Positions 23,496 through 54,047 of a stretch of 64,000 nucleotides of DNA are shown piece after piece (position 1 is the first letter of the stretch; each line of letters opens with the position of its first letter). The position numbers and the translations under genes were made by a program. Under the pieces are notes generated by a model, which had not been told where the DNA came from, searched no databases, and saw only the letters and a list, made by a program, of their open reading frames with translations. The DNA comes from Ruficoccus amylovorans (lineage in GTDB: Bacteria; Verrucomicrobiota; Verrucomicrobiia; Opitutales; Cerasicoccaceae), in assembly GCF_014230085.1 (NCBI RefSeq), contig NZ_JACHVB010000020.1:62001-126000 (forward strand), given 5' to 3'.

Positions 23496-23525
23496 ACCAC
23501 AGAGTACACAGAGAGCACAGAGGGG
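23496..23525 (+). repeat. CACAGAG-family repeat
   Basis: Reads TTAACCACAGAGTACACAGA and continues with GAGCACAGAGGGG. It is nearly the same as the arms at 29276 and 29463. A second, weaker member (CCACAAAGGCACAAAG) follows at about 23634-23662. Confidence 0.75.
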
Positions 23526-29264: not shown

Positions 29265-29270
29265 GATTTT

Positions 29271-29510
29271 TTTATTTAACCACAGAGTACACAGAGGGCA
29301 CGGAGCGCTGGCGCTGTTTCTTTACGCCACATTATTTAGCCTGAGCTTGCTTGAAATCAGGCTTGTTCATCGTGGTGACAATTTGAAATAAGAGAACATA
29401 ACCCGTTGTCATTGGGCATACGTCTTCACTAAACACGCACAGACATCGGAACTTCCCGCTACACAGCGTCAGCGCTCCGTGCCCTCTGTGTACTCTGTGG
29501 TTAAAATAAA
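29271..29510. mobile_element. 240-bp element with near-perfect 47/48-bp inverted ends (MITE-like)
   Basis: The left arm (29271-29317) contains AACCACAGAGTACACAGAGG and ends in GCGCTGGCGCTGT. The right arm (29463-29510) is its reverse complement with one substitution and one added A. The 145 bp between the arms hold no gene. It lies between two convergent genes. The arms belong to the CACAGAG family found throughout this window. Confidence 0.7.
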
Positions 29511-29530
29511 ATCAAATACCCGCCGTCGGC

Positions 29531-47988: not shown

Positions 47989-48115
47989 TAAAATGGCTGA
48001 ATGGTTAATAGGCTAAATGGCTGAAGGTTTCCCGTTTTGTGAGTGGCATTCCCGCCTATGGATGAAAACCTTCGTGCTCTTCGTGTCTTCATTGTGTCCT
48101 TCGTGACCCATAAAG
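47989..48115. repeat. AAATGGCTGAATGG repeat and inverted CACAAAG-family member
   Basis: AATGGCTGAATGGTTAATAG plus GCTAAATGGCTGAA (47992-48025) resembles the insert at 44793. The stretch 48069-48110 (CTTCGTGCTCTTCGTGTCTT and on) is an inverted member of the CACAAAG family. No gene lies here. Confidence 0.6.
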
Positions 48116-49542: not shown

Positions 49543-50721
49543 ATGCCGCACGAAGCACTTACACCCATCCTTGACGCGCTGCCCGGCCATCGGCGCGGCT
49601 TGAAGGAAATGCGAGAAATTATCCTCGCCAACGCGGTCATGTTCGGGGAGATCCCCGCGCCCACCTTTGCCGAGAGCGACTGTGCGCGCTTCCTCATGGA
49701 CCGGCTGACCGAGGGCGGCTGCCAGACGATCTCTACTGACGAGGTCGGCAACGCCGTGGGCATCGTCCCCGGCAGGAAGAGCGGCGGCAAGGCCATCCTT
49801 GTCTCCGCGCACATGGACACGCCCTTCGACAAGAGCGAAGACCACACCGTGACCGTTCTGCGTAACGGCATCAGCGGGGCCGGTGTGCTCGACAACGCGC
49901 TCGGCGTGGCCATCGTCGCCTCGTTGCCGATTATTTTTGAAAAGCTCGGGCTCACCTTCGAGCACGACATCCTGCTCATGGGCTCCAGCCGCAGCCTCGG
50001 TTCGGGAGACATCGAGGGGATGCGCTTCTTTTTAAACAACAACAAGCTGCCCATCGAGGCGGGCGTCATCGTCGAGGCCGCGACTCTCGGGCGACTCAGC
50101 TATACCTCGCTGGGAATGAGCCGGGGCGTGATCGACTGCCGTATCCCGCACGGGTATGACTTCAGCCGCTTCGGGGCGGGCGGAGCCATTGCCATCCTCA
50201 ACCGCGTCATTTCCGGCATGCTCGCCATCCGTATCCCGCGCGAGCCCTTAACCCAGATCATTCTCGGCTCGGTGCGCGGGGGAACGACCTTTAATACCGT
50301 CGCCCGACGCGGCAATCTCCGCTACGAAATCCGCAGTGAAGGCAGCGACATGGTGGTGGACATCAACCGCCAGATCGACAGCCTGCTGGGCGAAATCCGC
50401 TCCTCCGCCGGCGTTACGCTCCAACACGACGAGGTGGCACGCCGCGAGCATGGCGGGCTCGCCTACACGCACCCGCTGGTGCAGTCCTGCCGCGAGATTA
50501 TGGCCGCGCTCGACGTGGACCCCATTGTGGCTCCCTCCACCGGCGAACTGGCCGCGCTCATCGAGCGGGGCATCCCCGGCGTCACCCTGGGCATGACCTA
50601 CGGCGAGAACCGCCACCTGCAGGACGAACTCGTCGCTATCGACCCGATCTTCACCGGACTGGCCCAGTTGCTGGCCGTCCTCCAAGCCATCGACAAAGGA
50701 ATTTGCCATGACGAAACTTGA
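49543..50721 (+). CDS. M20/M28-like peptidase fold protein lacking the catalytic Glu pair
   Basis: 392 aa. The metal-binding pattern is partly kept: ILVSAHMDTPFD (His90, Asp92), GVLDNALGVA (bridging Asp117), GVIVEAATLG and a late His in YGENRHLQDE. The place where M20/M42 enzymes have the catalytic and metal-binding Glu-Glu reads LMGSSRSLGSGD, so both Glu are replaced by Ser-Arg. A dimerisation domain with GSVRGGTTFNTVA is intact. It overlaps the glucosyl-3-phosphoglycerate synthase start by 14 bp, so the two are coupled. It may be an inactive or changed hydrolase that serves the sugar pathway. Confidence 0.82.
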   Translation: MPHEALTPILDALPGHRRGLKEMREIILANAVMFGEIPAPTFAESDCARFLMDRLTEGGCQTISTDEVGNAVGIVPGRKSGGKAILVSAHMDTPFDKSEDHTVTVLRNGISGAGVLDNALGVAIVASLPIIFEKLGLTFEHDILLMGSSRSLGSGDIEGMRFFLNNNKLPIEAGVIVEAATLGRLSYTSLGMSRGVIDCRIPHGYDFSRFGAGGAIAILNRVISGMLAIRIPREPLTQIILGSVRGGTTFNTVARRGNLRYEIRSEGSDMVVDINRQIDSLLGEIRSSAGVTLQHDEVARREHGGLAYTHPLVQSCREIMAALDVDPIVAPSTGELAALIERGIPGVTLGMTYGENRHLQDELVAIDPIFTGLAQLLAVLQAIDKGICHDET

Positions 50722-51688
50722 ATCCTGGATTCAGCACAACACCTTTCACCACAGCCAGTTTTACGACCAGCTTGAACTGCTCAAGCAGAAGGAAAAAACC
50801 GGGCTGACGATTTCGCTGTGCATCCCCACGCTCAACGAGGAAGCCACCATCGGGAAGGAGATCGTGATCTTCCGCTCGGAGCTGATGGAGCGCTACCCGC
50901 TGGTGGACGAGATCGCCGTCATCGACTCGGGCTCGACCGACAAGACGCTCGAAGTCGCCGCCTCCTTTGGCGCGGACACGTACTTCGCCGGGGACATCCT
51001 GCCCTCGCAGGGCCACAAGCGCGGCAAGGGTGAGAACCTGTGGAAAGCCATTCACCAGCTCAAGGGCGACATCATCGTCTATGTCGATGCGGACATTAAA
51101 AACATCCACCCGCGCTTCTGCTACGGGCTGGTGGCCCCGCTGCTGTACCGCGAGGAGATCAAGTACGTCAAGGCCTTCTACGACCGCCCGCTGGCCTTCT
51201 CGCAAGGGGTGCGCCCCAGCGGCGGCGGCCGTGTGACGGAGATACTCGTGCGGCCGCTGTTCTCGCTTTTCTTCCCCGAGCTGACCGGGCTGGTGCAGCC
51301 GCTCTCGGGCGAATACGCCGTGCGCCGCGAAGTCCTGGAGCGCCTGCCGTTCCCCATCGGCTACGGGGTGGAGACCTCGCACATCCTCGACGTGTACCGC
51401 CAGTGGGGCCTGGAAGCCTTTGGCCAGACCGACCTCGACCAGCGCGTGCACCGCAACCAGGAAACGCTCTCGCTGGGAAAAATGTCCTTCGGCATCCTCC
51501 AGAGCTTCCTCGGCCGCCTCAAGAACATGGGCATGGAGGGCAACCTCCCCGCCATGACCAACGTGCTGCGCCAGTTCATCGCCAAGGACCAGCAGTACGA
51601 GCAAGTCTGCTATGACATTGTCGAGGAGGAACGCCCGCCCATGATCGACATCCCCGAGTACCGCGAAAAAATGGGCTACGACGGGTAG
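50708..51688 (+). CDS. Glucosyl-3-phosphoglycerate synthase-like glycosyltransferase (GT81)
   Basis: 326 aa. GT-A fold with LCIPTLNEEATIGKEI, AVIDSGSTDKTLEVA, the donor motif Asp127-Ala-Asp129 in VYVDADIKNIHPRF, GRVTEILVRPLFSLFFPEL and GYGVETSHILDVYRQWG, which together match GpgS. It transfers glucose from a nucleotide sugar to 3-phosphoglycerate, giving glucosyl-3-phosphoglycerate, the precursor of the compatible solute glucosylglycerate. It starts inside the end of the M20-like gene. A HAD phosphatase candidate lies at 54213. Mannosyl-3-phosphoglycerate synthase is the main alternative but has a different motif set. Confidence 0.88.
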   Translation: MTKLESWIQHNTFHHSQFYDQLELLKQKEKTGLTISLCIPTLNEEATIGKEIVIFRSELMERYPLVDEIAVIDSGSTDKTLEVAASFGADTYFAGDILPSQGHKRGKGENLWKAIHQLKGDIIVYVDADIKNIHPRFCYGLVAPLLYREEIKYVKAFYDRPLAFSQGVRPSGGGRVTEILVRPLFSLFFPELTGLVQPLSGEYAVRREVLERLPFPIGYGVETSHILDVYRQWGLEAFGQTDLDQRVHRNQETLSLGKMSFGILQSFLGRLKNMGMEGNLPAMTNVLRQFIAKDQQYEQVCYDIVEEERPPMIDIPEYREKMGYDG

Positions 51689-51704: not shown

Positions 51705-52581
51705 GAATACGGTCACAAAGAACACAAAGCAGACACGAAGCGCACAAAGAGAATGTTATGAAGGGGAATCTAAGGCTCATGCGGGTTTGCGCGGGATTGA
51801 TTTTTGCACTGTCAATCAGCGCGTTTACTGCTGGCTCATGCTTGCGTGCCGACAACCTCCCGTTGAGCAGTATTCAAGGTCTTAATCAAAATGAGGTTAT
51901 CCGGTTTTTAGTCGATTGGTCCGAGCGCTTTCCCGACCGTCAACTTTATTTGGTGGAGAAAATTCAGATTACACCTGGAGCTGTTAAGGCAATCAGTGCC
52001 ATCTATAATTATCGGTGGGAAAATGGGTTCTACTCGGGGGAGCTATGTACAATCAATCTCGAGAAAACGAAATATGCAGGCGAACTCCTATCGGATCAAA
52101 GGCTCTATCATTTTAAAATATATGAATTCGATCTCGTGGGTAAAAGAGTGCGAATTGAAGCAGGAAATGGAACGCCTACTCATGAAGAGCTGGAGTTTAT
52201 TCGGCAAAGCTTTCTGTCAGATAAGACTGTACGGTTTATTCTGGACAAAGAATCCGACGATACTTTGAGAGTTTCACCTCCATTTGCATTATTTCAGACG
52301 GAAAATGATGCGATCGATAATTGGAAGGCATGTGTAGAGACTCCCGTTCCTGTTTATGCTTTGACCGAATATGTTTCTTATATTTGTCGGGTCGATGATG
52401 GTTTTTACTTAATATCTTTGTTGGACAAATATTACAGTTGGCAGCTAGCCCTACGGGACAAAAACGGCTCGCCTGAATTTTTAGCACAAAGAAGAACTAT
52501 ATCGCCCTAAATGGTGGCTTGAAGCATCAATTACAACTTCGTGTTCTTCGTGTCTTCTTTGTGCTCTTTGTGACCGTATTC
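51705..52581. mobile_element. Gene-bearing element with 36-bp inverted ends
   Basis: The left arm (51705-51740) starts GAATACGGTCACAAAGAACA; the right arm (52546-52581) is its reverse complement with 34 of 36 positions identical. Weaker pairing continues about 12 bp inwards. The arms belong to the CACAGAG/CACAAAG family. Between them lies one AT-rich gene (51758-52510), and nothing else. It interrupts the glucosylglycerate cluster. No target-site duplication is visible and no transposase is encoded. Confidence 0.6.
51758..52510 (+). CDS. AT-rich exported protein of unknown function
   Basis: 250 aa from ATG 51758. Residues 1-31 form a signal peptide (MKGNLRLMRVCAGLIFALSI, ending near SCLRA). 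The rest is a soluble alpha/beta protein with four Cys (in ELCTINL, KACVET and YICRVDD among others). I recognise no family. Base composition and codon use are visibly richer in A and T than in every neighbour (Asn, Ile and Lys codons ending in A/T), which suggests transfer from elsewhere. It is enclosed by inverted repeats. It might be a passenger gene of a non-autonomous element. Confidence 0.65.
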   Translation: MKGNLRLMRVCAGLIFALSISAFTAGSCLRADNLPLSSIQGLNQNEVIRFLVDWSERFPDRQLYLVEKIQITPGAVKAISAIYNYRWENGFYSGELCTINLEKTKYAGELLSDQRLYHFKIYEFDLVGKRVRIEAGNGTPTHEELEFIRQSFLSDKTVRFILDKESDDTLRVSPPFALFQTENDAIDNWKACVETPVPVYALTEYVSYICRVDDGFYLISLLDKYYSWQLALRDKNGSPEFLAQRRTISP

Positions 52582-52592
52582 TGATTCCGCCC

Positions 52593-54047
52593 ATGCGTGT
52601 AGCGATTATCCACTACCATTTAAAGCCCGGCGGGGTGACGCGCATCGTCGAGAGCGCGGCGGAGGCGCTGGCTGCGTACGGCGTTGATCTGTGCGCCATC
52701 TCCGGCGAACCGTACACCGGCGGCGCGGAGTTAAAAACCGGCGTTGTATCCGGTCTTGGATACACGACCGAAGAGTCCGAGTACATCGACCCGAAGTACC
52801 TTCTGCATGAGCTCAAGGCCGAGGCAAAAGAGTTGCTCGGAGGCGAACCGGACCTGTGGCACATCCATAACCATTCGCTGGGCAAGAACGCCGTTCTGCC
52901 GGATCTCGTCGGCCTGCTGGTGCGGGAAGGGGCGGCGGTGCTTTTGCAGGTCCATGATTTTGCCGAGGACGGGCGTCCGGGGAATTACCAACTGGTAGGG
53001 GAGGGTATTGCCGACTGGAAGAATCTTTACCCGTACGGGCCGCGTGTCCACACCGCCGTCCTCAACCGCCGTGACGAGTCCATTTTAAGCGGCGCGGGCA
53101 TGCCCGCCGAGTGCCTCCACCTGCTTCCCAATCCGGTGTCCGTCCCTCATGGCGCGGTCGCCCGCCCCGGCAGCGAGCCGCCGAAGATCGCCGGGATGGA
53201 GCGGCTTTTTCTGTATCCCACCCGGGCCATTCGCCGCAAAAACATGGGCGAGTTCCTGTGCTGGGCCGCGCTGGCGCGGGAGGGCGAGACTTTCGCCACC
53301 ACGCTGGCCCCGGCCAACCCGACCGCCCGCCCCGTGTACGAGCGTTGGGTGGCCCTTGCCAAGGAACTGGAATTGCCCGCCGTTTTCGAGTTGGCGCAGG
53401 CGGTCGATTTGTCGTTTCCCGAGGTGATGGCGGCGGCGGAGACAGTGGTCACGACAAGCGTGGCCGAGGGCTTCGGGATGGCGTTTCTGGAGCCGTTTCT
53501 TTTCGGGAAAACGCTTTGCGGGCGCGATCTGCCCGACATTACCGGGGATTTTTTCAAAGCAGGGGTCAGACTGAGCGGACTCTACGACCGGCTCGATGTG
53601 CCCCTGGAATGGATCGGCGGGGCAGGGGAACTGCGTGCGAAAATCGCCCCGTCGCTGGCCGCCAGTTACGCCGCCTACGGGCGTGAATGTGGCCCACGTG
53701 AAATCGCCGCTGCGCTCGCCGCCGCGGTGGACGGTGAGCGGGTTGATTTCGGGCGACTCGACGAGGATTTGCAGGCCCGCGCCATCCGGCACTTGCGTTC
53801 GTTATCCGACCCGGCCAGCGAGATCCTCCCGCCTGCGTTGGTGCGACAGGATGCCACCACTGCCGAGGCCAACCGCGCTGCCATCGCCGAGCATTTCAAC
53901 CTGAAACAGTACGGCCAGCGCCTCGTTGGGATTTATGGAAAAATCCTGTCCGCCCCGGCTTCCGTCGCCGGGAGCGAATCGCTGGACCCGGCCCGCGTGC
54001 TTGACGCGTTTCTCGATCCGGCCCGTTTCTGCCTGCTGCGGACGTAG
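52593..54047 (+). CDS. GT4-like glycosyltransferase
   Basis: 484 aa. N-terminal GT-B domain: MRVAIIHYHLKPGGVTRIVE and LWHIHNHSLGKN. C-terminal donor domain: LFLYPTRAIRRKNMGEFL and TTSVAEGFGMAFLEPFLFGK, with the EX7E-type site. About 100 extra residues follow (AEHFNLKQYGQRLVGIYGKIL near the end). It starts 12 bp after the right inverted repeat of the inserted element and probably was once directly downstream of the GpgS-like gene. Its acceptor is unknown; a second sugar on glucosylglycerate or a glycolipid are options. Confidence 0.82.
   Translation: MRVAIIHYHLKPGGVTRIVESAAEALAAYGVDLCAISGEPYTGGAELKTGVVSGLGYTTEESEYIDPKYLLHELKAEAKELLGGEPDLWHIHNHSLGKNAVLPDLVGLLVREGAAVLLQVHDFAEDGRPGNYQLVGEGIADWKNLYPYGPRVHTAVLNRRDESILSGAGMPAECLHLLPNPVSVPHGAVARPGSEPPKIAGMERLFLYPTRAIRRKNMGEFLCWAALAREGETFATTLAPANPTARPVYERWVALAKELELPAVFELAQAVDLSFPEVMAAAETVVTTSVAEGFGMAFLEPFLFGKTLCGRDLPDITGDFFKAGVRLSGLYDRLDVPLEWIGGAGELRAKIAPSLAASYAAYGRECGPREIAAALAAAVDGERVDFGRLDEDLQARAIRHLRSLSDPASEILPPALVRQDATTAEANRAAIAEHFNLKQYGQRLVGIYGKILSAPASVAGSESLDPARVLDAFLDPARFCLLRT

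Follow-up and report, generated by a model that had tools for sequence, protein, structure and literature searches.

MITEs and other non-autonomous derivatives of insertion sequences have inverted ends, occur as short dispersed copies with no transposase inside, and may carry passenger genes. Another arrangement is found in the intervening sequences of 23S rRNA that encode the S23/IVP protein (PF05635), where a small gene sits in the loop of a long hairpin. The Rpn recombination-promoting nucleases of the PD-(D/E)XK type are linked to recombination and involve no classical transposase; they are not known to be associated with arms. REP elements with RAYT and TIRtrons with tyrosine transposases are dispersed intergenic inverted repeats in which one gene family is flanked by the repeats and non-autonomous copies occur (PMC3733652). 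TAACTGA heptamers form intergenic tandem repeats of a short unit with a patchy distribution in Beggiatoaceae, Cyanobacteria, and Bacteroidetes (PMC4679880).

We analyzed a 64,000-nt stretch of the Ruficoccus amylovorans genome (the window; contig NZ_JACHVB010000020.1, here C20, positions 62,001 to 126,000), in which an AT-rich gene of a secreted protein had been predicted to lie between inverted repeats, in a gene cluster between a GpgS-like gene and a glycosyltransferase gene. That location was correct, and the features of the locus are as follows (window coordinates).

50708..51688, + strand: upstream neighbor, a glycosyltransferase (GT2, GpgS-like) that bounds the reused site on the left
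51705..51749, + strand: left arm, GGTCAC class, four CACRAAG units with 9/11/9 spacing, outer GAATAC
51758..52510, + strand: passenger gene of 250 aa and GC 43%, with atypical codon use and a hydrophobic N-terminus (predicted secreted); no known family
52537..52581, − strand: right arm, inverted copy of the left arm, 89% over 45 nt
52593..54047, + strand: downstream neighbor, a GT4-like glycosyltransferase that bounds the reused site on the right
48070..48108 (C20:110070-110108), − strand: single arm of the GGTCAC class, partner arm not found

The two 36-nt cores (51705-51740 and 52546-52581) are inverted copies of each other that agree at 34 of 36 positions, as had been predicted, and the match extends to 45 nt (40/45), including the outer GAATAC/GTATTC ends. 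A scan of the window for the arm with up to three mismatches found only the two arms themselves, and gave no match when the window was shuffled 100 times with its dinucleotides preserved. The unit has an inverted-repeat score of 65 vs. at most 23 in shuffles. A chance repeat was rejected on these figures. When joined through a short artificial loop, the two arms form a stable DNA hairpin (−37.8 kcal/mol, z −10.9); either arm alone folds no better than shuffles. The predicted tight fit around a single gene was also confirmed: one ORF lies between the arms, with 8 nt before its ATG and 26 nt after its stop codon. The unit has terminal inverted repeats like a MITE, and its arms of tandem units closely surround one gene. 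No transposase is present inside it, in agreement with the original prediction, and no Rfam family matched it, which ruled out a known RNA. The resemblance to the 23S rRNA intervening sequences is that of a gene in a hairpin loop, and PF05635 genes are often found within inverted arms in this order (see below). However, the window unit lies between protein genes, has arms of 9-nt units, matches no Rfam family, and carries a passenger other than PF05635. TAACTGA heptamers are likewise intergenic, patchy, short-unit tandem repeats, but they are direct repeats rather than inverted pairs and are not reported around GxxExxY or four-helix-bundle genes.

The composition of the passenger differs from that of its neighbors, as the GC and codon-use check proposed with the original prediction confirmed. 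GC drops from about 0.62 around the unit to 0.40-0.44 within it (43% in the loop), and the codon score of the passenger is −0.23, compared to 0.20 to 0.48 in the seven neighboring genes of the window on which the score was trained. The gene looks foreign. The passenger has no family match in Pfam, NCBIfam, PHROG, or PADLOC, and the family search showed that it is neither a GxxExxY nuclease nor a PF05635 protein; lacking a nuclease family match, the window unit is non-autonomous at most. Its AlphaFold model, built with three sequences, was too poor for use (pLDDT 38). Phage origin was rejected (no viral relative and no PHROG). Two distant homologs were found, in genomes G005 and G076 (41 and 35%, respectively). 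Neither lies within arms, indicating that this gene family also spreads without them.

These armless homologs, and the single arms that exist in the R. amylovorans genome, are what one would expect if the gene had arrived by ordinary horizontal transfer and the flanking arms were unrelated repeats present by coincidence. We consider this very unlikely in view of the narrow gaps on both sides of the gene, the matched GAATAC/GTATTC arm ends, and the presence of a gene in arms at the same site in two congeners. The G076 homolog (L025, G076:C31) is located among small genes with similar structured spacers, and by eye this region looks like an integron cassette array. An integron-like cassette captured by an integrase would be in keeping with such a relative; it is nevertheless the least probable of the explanations considered here, as there is no array in the window but one unit between two conserved genes, and the unit has 45-nt inverted arms on both sides instead of the one attC-like recombination site that accompanies each cassette gene.

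In the whole R. amylovorans genome (G000; 4.5 Mb), the arm class of the window unit, named GGTCAC, is present in ∼25 copies at some 20 loci. Its consensus is GGTCACRAAGNNCACRAAGNAGNCACRAAGNNCACRAAG, with four CACRAAG units at 9/11/9 spacing; across the arm family the units are ∼9 nt (GGTCACRAAGNN...). Most copies form inverted pairs that span about 90-370 bp and hold no gene, and some are single. A second common arm class in this genome is TTAACCACAGAGNNCACAGAGNNCACAGAG. Arms resemble each other more within a locus than between loci (14 pairs from G000 and G004; none of 20,000 permutations was as high), and the interiors of the pairs differ between loci, as the arm sequences themselves also vary. 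Exact GGTCAC arms were counted in related genomes as well: there are 23 in G004 and 6 in G005, and none in G001, G003, G006, and G007, with three copies carrying one mismatch in G001. Two other arm sites were observed in the window. Positions 29266-29317 and 29463-29517 make up a 252-bp inverted pair of the other class (TTAACCACAGAGTACACAGAGGGCACGGAGCGCTGGCGCTGT) without a gene, which shares the inner sequence CGCTGSCGCT with the pairs at C13:157281 and C13:158615. A CACAGAG-type arm is found at 23498-23522 (C20:85498-85522; partner not established).

Arms of this kind are associated with a nuclease family. We gathered genes of the GxxExxY family (PF13366/TIGR04256; PDDEXK_3) across the order and called arms with a score of at least 28 close to the gene. 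Among loci with full flanks, 21 of 28 genes lie inside matched inverted arms, compared to 1 of 168 control windows shifted within the same loci. In a larger set of 56 entries (a few loci entered twice; 51 distinct proteins) 47 passed, vs. 6% of cross-locus pairs. The arm sequence differs from locus to locus, even inside one genome, and arm similarity tracks protein similarity (Mantel 0.46; the highest of 1000 permutations was 0.24). In 33 of 41 cases, vs. 10.3 expected, a nuclease and its nearest protein relative had arms of the same leader class, with leader classes set after viewing the arms and only loci with visible arms included; these statistics are not formally corrected for the kinship of species, although the members of close pairs are often from different families. 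The catalytic motif D-x(8-13)-E-x-K is kept in 49 of the 51 proteins.

The arm class of the window unit also surrounds an intact GxxExxY gene in the same genome (L015, C35:281823-282218). The gene is tightly packed between arms of the GGTCAC 9/11/9 class that span C35:281784-282259. Nucleases with four-unit-class arms from G000 (L015), G002 (L125), and G022 (L186) form one supported clade, and the nucleases inside GGTCAC arms in G004 and G005 are 72 and 78% identical to L015, respectively. The GxxExxY genes examined in G001, G003, G006, and G007 are associated with other arm classes. No solved structure resembling the L015 nuclease by sequence was found. GxxExxY and Rpn nucleases belong to different families of the PD-(D/E)XK type, and GxxExxY may resemble Rpn in being tied to recombination without a classical transposase. 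Our literature search, which covered openly accessible papers, returned no link between GxxExxY or PDDEXK_3 and inverted arms, no relevant paper with the repeat strings and, as the original prediction had stated, no described element with such ends.

Nucleases are not the only cargo. Genes of the four-helix-bundle family (PF05635) are inside arms, often with 7-8-nt units, at 13 of 26 loci vs. 0 of 156 shifted controls, and small genes with no family are also enclosed.

L146: 241 aa
L148: 101 aa
L112: 93 aa
L141: 66 aa
L264 (G008): 127 aa
L266 (G008): 89 aa

The inverted ends, the many short gene-less copies, and the transposase-free interior with its possible passenger are all traits shared with MITEs. 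The unit might then derive from an insertion sequence, with an ordinary transposase encoded elsewhere and the passenger captured between the terminal repeats; one TTAACC subfamily even has the inner CGCTGSCGCT in common, which would be expected of copies of a single unit. We regard this as improbable, and less likely than a hairpin-arm element, because the arms consist of tandem 9-nt units that match within a locus and vary between loci, the interiors are unshared, no target duplication was seen, and the linked enzyme is a PD-(D/E)XK nuclease, not a transposase. Furthermore, a genome-wide PF01797 search found no Y1 transposase in G000, G001, or G003. The latter result ruled out a REP/RAYT element or a TIRtron, to which the hairpin-arm elements are otherwise similar in being dispersed intergenic inverted repeats with a repeat-flanked gene family and non-autonomous copies. 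The window arms also have no GTAG tag, and the gene enclosed by such arms is PDDEXK_3 instead of a Y1 transposase.

We compared the gap that holds the window unit in relatives. The GpgS-like and GT4-like genes adjoin in all nine family members (syntenic). The G000 gap contains the passenger within GGTCAC arms. The G002 gap contains a different gene, gene B (99 aa, membrane-like), whose left arm is of the CACGAAG type and whose right arms are mixed, and a homolog of gene B lies within CACAGAG-type arms in G001. In G003 a short empty pair of the CACAGAG/CACGGAG type was found. Outside the genus, the G004 gap has an inverted repeat of 7-8-nt units (score 34 vs. 20 in shuffles); the weaker inverted repeats of G006, G008, and G009 are at or near the shuffle maximum and are suggestive only. 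The G005 gap is 41 bp without arms. The G007 gap, also without arms, holds another lipoprotein-like ORF (163 aa; L061 2474-2965), indicating that the gap takes up genes even where no arms are visible. When all G000 arm sites with both flanks recovered were read by eye in congeners (the GpgS/GT4 gap counted), inverted arms, often of another class, were present in ∼29 of 49 comparisons; some sites, e.g., L016 and L021, are without arms in congeners. Since arms of another class and with other cargo occupy the same positions, we concluded that the sites are used repeatedly, with turnover of both arm class and cargo. At the site of the single window arm 48070, G003 has a four-helix-bundle gene within inverted arms of 7-nt units (L158).

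The original prediction had offered two readings, a non-autonomous mobile unit or a type of cassette whose genes are recruited by intergenic repeats. Both are consistent with the finding of other arms, with another gene or none, at the same site in congeners and of other genes in similar arms elsewhere. The part of both readings that concerns movement stays conditional: the proposed search of relatives recovered the empty pair of G003 and gene B in G001 and G002, but no base-exact empty site in the relatives compared, no target-site duplication is visible at the window unit, and no movement was seen (the intergenic flanks are much diverged between species). Neither the same gene and arms fixed across distant genera nor repeats without a change in gene content was encountered. 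The dispersal of the arms as a family, the predominance of gene-less pairs, the change of arm class at a fixed site, and the link to a nuclease family go beyond the original prediction.

The main rival explanation is that the arms are intergenic structural hairpins with a role at the transcript 3′ end, in termination or in stability. They would be kept by selection for pairing while template switching, or conversion among the copies, renews their sequence, genes would enter the loop by occasional illegitimate insertion, and the nuclease link would be incidental. Gene orientation at the 23 arm sites that could be resolved with codon-score gene calls (0 divergent, 10 convergent, and 13 tandem) would also be explained by a 3′-end role. 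The inverted pairs that persist in place in ∼29 of the 49 comparisons with congeners, the better match of arms within a locus than across loci, and the very stable fold of the joined arms are consistent with such hairpins too. However, the arms fit closely around the genes inside them, arm class follows the nuclease clade from one family to another, some sites are armless in congeners (L016, L021), and a 787-nt loop that holds a gene would make a poor terminator. We consider primarily structural arms unlikely. G001 and G002 share gene B but differ in the class of the left arm, so some change of arms in place must occur, which counts against the element reading.

We slightly favor the explanation that the window unit belongs to a family of hairpin-arm elements, as a non-autonomous member that carries a passenger, with the cognate GxxExxY nuclease as the likely acting enzyme. 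Each element is a pair of inverted arms made of three to four short tandem units (∼9 nt), and the space between the arms is either empty or occupied by a small gene, which may be that of a PD-(D/E)XK nuclease (GxxExxY, PDDEXK_3). As single strands or on extrusion, the arms could pair into a long hairpin. Their cognate nuclease may recognize its own arm class and cut at the arms or at favored sites downstream of genes, and repair would then copy the arm-bounded unit. By such copying, nuclease-less derivatives like the window unit could be moved in trans and a caught gene carried along. Favored sites such as the GpgS/GT4 gap would be re-occupied by units of another class with other cargo. More tentatively, we propose that these are undescribed, widespread mobile hairpin units that have no transposase, whose arms are recognized class by class by a resident GxxExxY PD-(D/E)XK nuclease, with a parallel four-helix-bundle class, and which settle repeatedly at fixed positions downstream of genes, carrying passengers with them. 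They would be a variant of inverted-repeat-bounded mobile units, with a fair chance of forming a class of their own.

GxxExxY and the four-helix-bundle/S23-like proteins are abundant families without an assigned function, and in this order their genes are mostly or often inside inverted arms. The finding that arm class follows nuclease clade provides a testable hypothesis for the GxxExxY target. Arm units explain a large share of the intergenic repeats that shift in these genomes, and they suggest a route by which foreign genes may be added inside conserved gene clusters without a recognized transposase or integrase.

An exact-consensus scan of named genomes, which possibly left out records near the genome of the window, found the GGTCAC arm only in Verrucomicrobiota bacterium JB024 and Cyclobacterium lianum. 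The latter, a member of another phylum (Bacteroidota), has a single exact copy of the 39-nt consensus (L109 2771-2809). Plasmid-borne GxxExxY genes with arms were detected in Bacteroides (score 45), Bernardetia (36), and Sphingomonas (41), vs. at most 20 in their own shifted controls; five other GxxExxY records from outside the phylum are without such arms. The arms at plasmid GxxExxY genes of Bacteroidota and Pseudomonadota indicate that the association is not a quirk of one lineage. On the Sphingomonas parapaucimobilis plasmid (L269), the armed GxxExxY gene is wedged between fabD and fabG in a fatty-acid cluster, with one arm overlapping the 3′ end of the GxxExxY gene as annotated.
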